Shown: piece after piece, positions 24,278 to 25,912 of the stretch
Layout of the letters: every line of letters begins with the position of its first letter
Numbering within the stretch: the stretch's first letter is position 1
Source of the DNA: Subsaxibacter sp. CAU 1640
GTDB lineage: Bacteria > Bacteroidota > Bacteroidia > Flavobacteriales > Flavobacteriaceae
Assembly (NCBI RefSeq): GCF_023156585.1
Contig: NZ_JALNMI010000002.1
Coordinates: forward strand, 352,479-416,478
Reading direction: 5' to 3'
DNA: 64,000 nt
Notes under the pieces: model-generated
What the model saw: the letters and a program-made list of their open reading frames with translations, nothing else
Databases searched by the model: none
What the model was told of the DNA's origin: nothing
Made by a program: the position numbers and the translations under genes

Positions 24278-24478
24278 ATGAGCGATATAATAGTCAACAT
24301 ATTAGACCTCATTGACAGCCTATTCTTTTGGCGCAGAAAAAAGAAACGAAGGAAATTTGAAAAGGACAATAATCTTCCAAAGAAAATAATGATTAGACCT
24401 TTGAACTTAATTCTAATAAGTCTTATCGCGATTCTTTTCATTATTAAATTAATAACACTTTTAGTCAAATGGATTTAA
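24278..24478 (+). CDS. Small basic membrane protein inside the kynurenine cluster
   Basis: 66 residues whose ATG follows the dehydrogenase stop directly (TAGATG) and whose stop overlaps the SDR start by 10 bases. Tight packing on both sides favours a real gene. The N-terminal half has a strongly basic stretch (WRRKKKRRKFEKDNN, about 18-32) and the C-terminal half is one membrane helix (about 42-63). I recognise no family, and it could instead be only translated spacer. Confidence 0.55.
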   Translation: MSDIIVNILDLIDSLFFWRRKKKRRKFEKDNNLPKKIMIRPLNLILISLIAILFIIKLITLLVKWI

Positions 24479-25251
24479 AACTCAACAATAAAAACGCATT
24501 GGTCTGTGGAAGTACTGCGGGTATAGGAAAAGCAACAGCCATTGGTTTGGCAAACGAAGGTACACGAGTAACGCTCATTGCCAGAAATGAAGACAAGCTG
24601 AAAGACGTTTTGACAGAACTTCCCAAACAACGCCAACACGATTACATCGTGGCAGATTTTTCAAATCCCGATGAGTTGAAGAGTAAGGTTACCGAATATA
24701 TCACTAAAAACGGTGGCTTCCATATTTTGGTGAACAATACAGGCGGTCCAAAAGCTGGAACTGTTTTGGATGCTGAACTGGATGAATTTGAAAATGCGTT
24801 TACACAACATTTAAAATGCAACCATATTCTCGCGCAAGCGGTCATTCCTTTTATGAAAAAGGAAGGCTATGGACGTATCGTCAATATGATTTCAACCTCT
24901 GTAAAACAACCTATTGAAGGTTTGGGCGTGAGCAATACCATTCGAGGCGCTGTGGCCAATTGGAGTAAAACCTTGGCAACTGAAGTTGGACCTTTTGGAA
25001 TTACGGTAAACAACGTTTTGCCAGGTGCAACAGCGACAGAGCGACTCACCTCAATACTCCATAATGTTGCAAAAAAAATAAACGGCACGTATGAAGATGC
25101 CGAAACAATGATGAAAAACGTCACACCTGCCAAACGTTTCGCCGAACCGGAAGAAGTAGCCAATGCAGTGGTATTTTTGGCAAGTGAATGCGCAGGCTAT
25201 ATTAACGGAATTAACCTTCCTGTTGATGGTGGTCGAACAAAATCTTTGTAA
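24469..25251 (+). CDS. SDR-family protein with atypical catalytic motif
   Basis: 260-residue short-chain dehydrogenase/reductase fold. The coenzyme loop is CGSTAGIGKATAIGLA (13-28), with VNNTGGP (88-94) in place of NNAG; S142/S144 lie in the catalytic-Ser region. The C-terminus INLPVDGGRTKSL is standard. The usual Tyr-x-x-x-Lys is replaced: the aligned stretch GVSNTIRGAV has S155 and R159. A subgroup of SDRs with an SN-x-x-R pattern exists, but its reactions are poorly defined. Context suggests a step in kynurenine or aminomuconate breakdown; which one is not clear. Confidence 0.8.
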   Translation: MDLKLNNKNALVCGSTAGIGKATAIGLANEGTRVTLIARNEDKLKDVLTELPKQRQHDYIVADFSNPDELKSKVTEYITKNGGFHILVNNTGGPKAGTVLDAELDEFENAFTQHLKCNHILAQAVIPFMKKEGYGRIVNMISTSVKQPIEGLGVSNTIRGAVANWSKTLATEVGPFGITVNNVLPGATATERLTSILHNVAKKINGTYEDAETMMKNVTPAKRFAEPEEVANAVVFLASECAGYINGINLPVDGGRTKSL

Positions 25252-25265
25252 CTTTAAAGTCAAAT

Positions 25266-25361
25266 CTCGCGTTAGGGATTGAGGCATTGTTAGAGCTCCT
25301 CGCAGAGAGCGACTGCCGAAAGCCCGACTCTCTGTAGCTTAAGCGAAAGAGAGTAACGCCC
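25266..25361 (-). repeat. Structured intergenic element, Bacteroidota-type
   Basis: A 96-base element fills the gap between the SDR gene and haaO. Read on the minus strand it begins GGGCGTTA, has GTCGGGCTTTCGGC in the middle (25328-25315) and ends CAATCCCTAACGC. The ends pair (GCGTTA with TAACGC) and CAGAGAG (25303-25309) pairs with CTCTCTG (25328-25334), so a branched RNA fold is possible. I recall elements with these three landmarks as dispersed repeats in many Bacteroidota genomes, with no agreed function. Only one copy is present here. Confidence 0.65.
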
Positions 25362-25375
25362 AAAAAAAATATATT

Positions 25376-25912
25376 ATGAGTAATTTGGTTTCTCCTATAA
25401 ATTTCAAGGAATGGATTGAGGAAAACAGGCACTTGTTGAAGCCGCCTGTGGGCAATAAAGTCGTTTGGAAAGATGGTGATTTTATTGTGATGGTGGTTGG
25501 TGGTCCAAACAGCAGAAAAGATTATCACTACAATGAAACACCCGAATTTTTCTATCAGATTGAAGGTGATATTGTGCTGAAAATCATTGATAATGGTACG
25601 CCTAAAGATGTACACATCAAGGAAGGCGAGATTTATTTGTTGCCGCCAAAAGTGCCACATTCACCTCAACGCGGCGCCAATACGGTAGGTTTGGTAATTG
25701 AATACAAACGGCCTGAAGGAATGCGAGATGCGCTGCTTTGGTTCTGTGAAAATTGTACGACAAAACTTTATGAAGAGGATTTTTCGGTGAAAAATATTGA
25801 GACCGATATGCCTGTCATTTTTGACAAATATTATGGTGACAAGGGCAAACGCAAATGTCCAAATTGCGGCGAAATTATGGAGCCGCCTAAAAAAGTTCAG
25901 TTAGAGGATTAA
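25376..25912 (+). CDS. haaO: 3-Hydroxyanthranilate 3,4-dioxygenase
   Basis: Cupin iron(II) dioxygenase that opens the ring of 3-hydroxyanthranilate to 2-amino-3-carboxymuconate 6-semialdehyde. 178 residues. The catalytic iron ligands H51, E57 and H95 lie in HYNETPEFF and PKVPHSPQRG. The second, rubredoxin-like iron site has C124, C127, C161 and C164 (WFCENC and KCPNCGE). Length and ligand spacing match bacterial single-domain HAAO exactly. It lies after the structured spacer element and 38 bases before the ACMSD-type gene. Confidence 0.97.
   Translation: MSNLVSPINFKEWIEENRHLLKPPVGNKVVWKDGDFIVMVVGGPNSRKDYHYNETPEFFYQIEGDIVLKIIDNGTPKDVHIKEGEIYLLPPKVPHSPQRGANTVGLVIEYKRPEGMRDALLWFCENCTTKLYEEDFSVKNIETDMPVIFDKYYGDKGKRKCPNCGEIMEPPKKVQLED

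Follow-up and report, generated by a model that had tools for sequence, protein, structure and literature searches.

A class A copy of an enlarged Flavo-1 family, with a covarying three-way-junction base, lies directly upstream of haaO in Subsaxibacter

Flavo-1 (RF01705) has been a common yet unexplained motif of the Bacteroidota since 2010. Weinberg et al. 2010 (PMC2864571), in the part of the article that deals with the motif, presented it as a candidate RNA judged to be a probable RNA, with "n" entered both for cis-regulation and for switch. Part of a later text (PMC9029176) counts it among the abundant sRNA families without function, and Rfam files it as Gene; sRNA. In F. psychrophilum, the relevant passages of another study (PMC9723704) describe Flavo-1 matches lying sense or antisense indistinctly to transcribed regions and many lying outside them, and also report that several 5' transcribed regions coincide with Flavo-1 matches.

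The window analysed here is a stretch of 64,000 nucleotides from Subsaxibacter sp. CAU 1640. At the Rfam gathering cut-off, it contains one tRNA and nothing else, and relaxing the search to E<=5 gave nothing relevant near the element described below, which occupies the gap between a short-chain dehydrogenase (SDR) gene and haaO. A sequence-only reading of the gap had described a 96-base structured spacer with paired ends. The element is real but its core spans 93 bp, and the paired ends, GCGTTA (25269-25274) and TAACGC (25354-25359), form a helix (P1) that covaries among copies. The minus-strand landmarks of that reading, GGGCGTT, GTCGGGCTTTC and CAATCCCTAACGC, are all found in the sequence, and the window contains a single GGGCGTT-N(20-50)-GTCGGGCTTTC pattern, which 0/100 shuffles reproduce. 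Further copies were collected with a covariance model built from ten own-genome copies (R1), which placed helix P1b one column off and served for collecting only, and with a corrected model in which P1b is rightly placed (R2). The plus strand of the window copy, which is the better-folding "sense" strand, reads GCGTTA...TAACGCCC and is laid out as follows.

24469 to 25251, plus strand: SDR (short-chain dehydrogenase), the upstream gene (Pfam PF13561/PF00106)
25269 to 25361, plus strand: whole element, arm class A on a three-way-junction base; 93-bp core, R1/R2 covariance-model match L001:1504-1596
25269 to 25274, plus strand: P1 5' strand GCGTTA, partner 25354-25359
25275 to 25277, plus strand: P1b 5' strand GGG, partner CCC 25323-25325
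25278 to 25282, plus strand: core ATTGA, opposite GAAAG, putatively read as A.G, T-A, T-A, G.A, A.G
25283 to 25286, plus strand: P3 5' strand GGCA, partner TGCC 25314-25317
25293 to 25312, plus strand: class A tip GA-GCTC ... GAGC-GA, the variable hairpin hp2, short in the window copy
25314 to 25317, plus strand: P3 3' strand TGCC
25318 to 25322, plus strand: core GAAAG
25323 to 25325, plus strand: P1b 3' strand CCC
25326 to 25327, plus strand: conserved junction GA
25328 to 25353, plus strand: side hairpin hp1 CTCTCT...AGAGAG, self-paired; a short hairpin stands here instead in the congener G001
25354 to 25361, plus strand: P1 3' strand TAACGC, then CC; AAA usually comes next
25376 to 25912, plus strand: haaO, 3-hydroxyanthranilate dioxygenase (Pfam PF06052, 209.5 bits)

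The three-way junction is the meeting point of P1, hp1 and P1b, and in the distal arm GCTC (25295-25298) pairs with GAGC (25307-25310). The ATG of haaO begins 14 nt past the end of the element. Folded alone, the window copy is weak (single-sequence z of -0.84 for the minus and -1.92 for the plus strand), and the structural case for the element is a comparative one. A second pairing proposed earlier, CAGAGAG (25303-25309) with CTCTCTG (25328-25334), is not conserved; its two halves belong to separate hairpins, the tip and one strand of hp1, and it is specific to the window copy. An intrinsic terminator had been dismissed in that reading and the sequence bears this out, as no T run follows the hairpin, AAA follows the plus strand in most copies and the T run of the minus strand precedes the element.

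The window copy gives no match to RF01705, whose gathering cut-off is 42 bits. Among 27 copies in 20 loci, 11 pass this cut-off, so that annotation by the Rfam model caught under half of the sampled copies (11/27); all 11 are of arm class B (52-63 bits; L052 62.8 bits), and the remaining 16 (class A, C, odd or partial) fall below it. Class B copies match RF01705 on the plus strand, and the core GAUUG...GAAAGC and the host range agree. However, the Rfam model is a single hairpin (76 positions) that lacks P1 and hp1, and arm classes A, C and others fall below its cut-off. Class A and class B copies have the same P1, hp1, P1b and ATTG/GAAAG core, and their arms substitute for one another at shared slots, for example L210/L190 and L304/L254/L296. 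We conclude that the window copy belongs, with its class A arm, to an enlarged Flavo-1 family and not to RF01705 as modelled. Flavo-1 is thus extended by a base that Rfam omits and by arm classes that its model misses. The earlier statement that the element has no assigned function holds, but the element is not nameless, since its sister copies are Rfam Flavo-1. A search of literature text found no occurrence of CAATCCCTAACGC, GCGTTAGGGATTG, GCGTTAAGGATTG or GTTGCACCTATGCAAC; when shorter strings were added, the matching papers were apparently unrelated by title among the matches listed, and a search on repeats in Bacteroidetes gave nothing relevant among the matches listed.

Recurrence of the element, which the sequence-only reading had suggested, is borne out in its own genome and in relatives, in line with the search it had proposed. 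The own genome (G000) holds 15 blastn pieces at E<=10, several of them at E<1e-6, and 18 covariance-model matches at E<=0.01. At least one copy is present in 35/60 relatives (R1, E<=0.01), with a maximum of at least 70 in G036, where 72 candidates were scored. RF01705 itself matches 32 of the same 60 relatives. In G040, G048 and G053 it gives 32, 7 and 9 matches where R1 finds 3, 0 and 0 three-way-junction copies, and a branch of the Flavo-1 family with another base therefore probably exists. R2 matches 286/395 family genomes in 165/203 genera, leaving 109/395 family genomes without a match, and in a phylum-wide draw it matches 41/296 Bacteroidota genomes, five of these outside the class; per-genome counts in both surveys are lower bounds, as 11 or 14 candidates were scored per genome. 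Five deeply scored single-contig genomes contain 44, 88, 74, 27 and 15 copies (E<=1e-5), and plasmid and phage collections gave weak partial matches only. The earlier description as a structured, dispersed Bacteroidota element longer than a REP is in agreement with these results. Copies also cluster: a stretch of about 30 kb in the own genome (G000:C2:514375-544860) contains five, and one of about 31 kb in the congener G001 (G001:C5:112727-143985) at least four among those listed. A partial copy (G000:C1:501279-501331; L166:2278-2335) has just the class A arm, set on a different basal stem (CCAG/CTGG) and lacking both P1 and hp1.

Alignments of the copies show that the stems are maintained by compensatory changes. 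With further copies present as well, neither outcome that would have refuted the sequence-only reading came about. In A2 (43 distinct copies), 92.9% of cells are paired and 61 are doubly changed, against a shuffled mean of 13.0; the corresponding doubly changed counts are 143 against 22.2 in A3 (113 copies), 54 against 12.3 in A4 (32 copies) and 65 against 9.6 in A5 (68 copies), with A3-A5 biased towards the model because they were aligned to it. None of these four counts was reached in 500 shuffles, and shifting the partner by one column lowers pairing to 39-50%. A2 was aligned with R1, which carries the wrong P1b helix, yet the correct P1b still covaried. P1 is paired in 99.1% of cells with two-sided changes in 4/5 pairs (A3), P1b occurs as GGG/CCC, GCG/CGC or AGG/CCT, and the third pair of the ATTGA/GAAAG core covaries between T-A and A-T. 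Pure palindrome correction as the source of this covariation is disfavoured because the internal mismatches persist across copies.

Two-sided changed cells in A3-A5 number 262, against 15 (12+2+1) one-sided cells of the G.U type. Read on the minus strand (A3+A4), P1 has 707 Watson-Crick, 5 G.T and 4 A.C cells, P1b 710, 0 and 3, hp1 346, 4 and 1, and P3 323, 5 and 16; the hp2 stems have 723 Watson-Crick, 19 G.T and 8 A.C. Wobble pairs are rare and neither strand is clearly richer in them, P3 excepted, where the three pairs together have 16 G.U against 5 A.C cells on the plus strand.

The orientation of copies to their neighbouring genes is mixed. Among 113 copies, a set that includes the haaO copies L001, L054 and L173, tandem-gene contexts comprise 32 plus-strand and 44 minus-strand copies, and a further 68 high-scoring copies add 15 and 27; pooled, this is a mild bias (47:71, p 0.034), with genes taken from a custom codon-score caller, which miscalled the haaO locus L054 and probably also the gene behind one distance of -100. 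None of the 68 further copies lies inside a called gene. The two ends of the element differ in their surroundings. A stop codon lies within 11 nt of the GGGCG end in 45/97 copies and of the other end in 9/73 (p 2e-6), and a start codon within 27 nt in 20/74 against 6/99, the plus-strand orientation prevailing (p 2e-4), although both p-values are too small because copies of one ancestry are not independent. A cis-regulatory riboswitch or leader would keep a constant orientation before related genes, but the 113 and 68 copies are mixed and the haaO slot alone is constant. A palindromic repeat, CTTCGAGTG ... TATCGAGAAGT, directly adjoins the GGGCGTT end of several copies (L172:2689, L061:1501, L169 near 2545, L188 and L208).

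Replication-strand bias is absent among the 150 of 248 copies that were typed, with dnaA positions located and the terminus taken as opposite (73 co-oriented, 77 anti, p 0.81). The best-scoring rows in G409, G310 and G206 had hinted at clustering on the lagging strand, which the fuller count erased. These data bear on whether the element is of REP/BIME type and moved by a RAYT or IS200-like Y1 transposase, as its palindromic, intergenic and dispersed nature and the lack of an obvious target duplication might suggest. However, Y1_Tnp (PF01797) is absent from 20/35 carriers, including G000, G006 and G020 with 18, 24 and 36 copies, and the element is much longer than a REP. Because most carriers lack Y1_Tnp and replication bias is nil, we reject a RAYT/IS200 source, which we regard as extremely improbable.

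The sequence-only reading had placed the element inside a kynurenine cluster, and the haaO slot is the one place where its orientation is constant. Among 80 haaO loci (the best 80 of 584, from Flavobacteriaceae and related bacteria), the element lies directly upstream of haaO in 29 (R2, E<=0.1), in the orientation of the window in 29/29 and with 13-17 nt between its CCC end and the ATG; three additional R2 matches lie elsewhere within these loci. This constancy of slot, orientation and spacing, together with an apparent location between the promoter-like TAACTTTA and the ATG, would suit a cis-regulatory leader of the kynurenine operon, that is, a haaO-specific switch or attenuator. However, 51/80 haaO loci are without the element and in some of these the gap is taken up by one of at least two other repeat families, the 18 own-genome copies stand by unrelated genes, and the arm class shifts at the slot itself. 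A quick haaO+SDR tree (82 rows), for which arm classes and both of the other gap repeats were typed by eye, requires at least 18 changes in presence and, over its 31 carriers, at least 13 in arm class; these counts are given without a null. The left flanks of nine haaO loci are visibly homologous, with arms of A, B or D. A haaO-specific leader is therefore very unlikely in our judgement, and the copy in the haaO leader appears to be mainly inherited rather than selected for haaO. The haaO position of the element is striking, yet it does not amount to evidence of a kynurenine-specific role; with copies adjoining many unrelated genes, nothing links the element to that pathway.

In other species, the haaO gap is, by eye, short or occupied by at least two other repeats. 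One of these, AAGCCC..CCTTCCC ... GAGTTTCTCC..GGGGCTTT, looks dispersed and reaches within a few bases of the haaO ATG (L080, L101, L105, L129, L143, L146, L148, L152 and L154). A third gap repeat, GTCATTCCTGCGAA ... CGCAGGAATGACAAA or similar, is present in L109, L114, L137, L138, L140 and L144.

Copies differ in the distal arm, for which three main classes were distinguished.

Arm class A: GTTGGAGCTC...GAGCGACT, the class of the window copy
Arm class B: GGCATCC...GATATAG
Arm class C: GCTACCGTGTAGC

Automatic typing of 145 copies gave 58 of class A, 50 of class B, 5 of class C and 32 untyped, and rarer classes exist besides these three. The copies at L169:17321, L264:2530 and L220:4739 have yet another arm class, marked by GAAAAGCCC ... 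GAGGACTTG or similar. Other palindromic repeats are apparently nested in the hairpin loops of L110, L088 and L174 (hp2) and of L128 (hp1).

The congeners G000 and G001 have eight copies at identical sites. Some of these are better conserved than their flanks (74/77 against 38/106 and 64/111 in one case, 89/101 against 32/99 on one flank in another); in the pair formed by the window copy and L173, the element is not better conserved (66/93) than the coding-side flank (69/90). P1b is altered on both sides in this pair and in L160/L174. Sites are shared across genera as well. Among 163 sampled copies from 13 genomes of 12 genera (11,728 cross-genome pairs, G000-G001 excluded), 48 pairs have a flanking gene in common with the orientation unchanged and 6 with it reversed, against about 4 expected by chance if 2,800 equal slots are assumed. 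The sites of the element are long-lived. The arms at shared slots differ, as in L304 (B), L254 (A) and L296 (B) or in L184 (B) and L263 (A-like), and G009 L210 (class A) and G020 L190 (class B) have retained the same long, odd hp1 with the arm swapped. In G310, one tip is found on 17/24 copies with differing P3 stems, and the same tip occurs in 2/24 copies of G206 and 2/15 of G009. Near-identical copies (95-99%) stand at unrelated sites. The G000 copy at C1:248492 corresponds to gaps without a copy in G001 and G002, for which gain and loss are both possible. A MITE would have terminal inverted repeats together with a target-site duplication; the element has inverted ends, and at one presence/absence site, compared between diverged species, no duplication is visible.

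On balance, we favour the view that the element is a strand-neutral, modular DNA repeat of unproven function, with a persistent base and an exchangeable arm, rather than a gene-specific RNA. The stable base, made up of P1, hp1 with its three-way junction and the ATTG/GAAAG core, would hold a copy at one intergenic site over the long term. The distal arm, of class A, B, C or others, would be overwritten by arms from other copies, probably through template switching or gene conversion that uses the short conserved blocks flanking it, and a copy would occasionally appear at a new site. Folded DNA may be the working form; this and the route by which arms are copied are inferred. An RNA family would be expected to show more wobble. 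Rare wobble, mixed orientation and the lack of replication bias favour a DNA-level element. Among the non-coding RNA, non-autonomous mobile element and mRNA processing site offered by the sequence-only reading, the mobile or DNA-repeat option fits best, although movement itself was not observed: we found no moving enzyme and no target duplication, and the presence/absence site could reflect loss.

Some observations speak against the DNA reading. The internal mismatches are tandem G.A on the plus strand and C.T on the minus strand, so that one strand is seemingly the folded one, as RNA would explain. The plus-strand G.U excess in P3, the mild orientation bias, the strong asymmetry of the ends and the 29/29 constancy of the haaO slot also count against it. 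Persistence and two-sided changes at shared sites imply that individual copies are under selection, as a dead transposon would not be. A serious rival is a structured RNA read from the plus strand, which would act either in trans or, within UTRs, by binding a protein or by serving in processing or stability. Tandem G.A loops are typical of RNA folds, and such loops are what the plus strand offers. The compensatory changes that keep structure at single sites between congeners, the locked orientation in the haaO leader and the prevalence of plus-strand copies within 27 nt of an ATG would all agree with an RNA, as would the several 5' transcribed regions of F. psychrophilum that coincide with Flavo-1 matches in the part of that study cited above (PMC9723704). 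However, copies stand in either orientation to genes, G.U is nearly absent, the same passages place matches sense or antisense alike with many untranscribed, and the entry in Weinberg et al. 2010 (PMC2864571), in the part noted above, is negative for cis-regulation and switch. Published evidence that Flavo-1 is made as an RNA is ambiguous (PMC9723704), and we consider a structured RNA possible but doubtful. A protein-bound cruciform or chromosome landmark, such as a nucleoid or recombination site, would also be strand-neutral, retain its structure and occupy long-lived sites. It is quite unlikely, given that 109/395 family genomes have no match and that copy number ranges from 15 to 88 across the five deeply scored genomes.

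Returning to the modular DNA repeat, we tentatively suggest, as a less probable extension of it, that Flavo-1 represents one aspect of a large, modular family whose three-way-junction dock is fixed at its site across genera and whose distal arm is exchanged and spreads as a cassette (classes A, B, C and others, with one tip in three genera), such hairpin-arm mobility being kept by selection on DNA structure. To our knowledge, mobility of this kind has not been described for any bacterial repeat. The results weigh against the sRNA label of Flavo-1, and its function is now testable, as the predictions of a DNA repeat and of an RNA differ.

Integron attC sites are folded imperfect hairpins with a variable tip and short conserved ends, features that the present element shares. 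However, its ends read GCGTT...AACGC, the reverse of AAC...GTT, it has a side hairpin and no cassette arrays were seen with it; attC identity is rejected because of the reversed end orientation. Like REP/BIME sequences mobilized by RAYT, it is a short palindromic intergenic repeat with many copies, but it is longer, contains a three-way junction, has no REP tag tetranucleotide that we recognised, and most of its carriers are without a Y1 transposase. ERIC and BOX are structured intergenic repeats of about 100 bp that occur in both orientations, some of them in transcripts. By description, the present element resembles them in length, structure, intergenic location and orientation, and differs in the replacement of the arm observed here at fixed sites.
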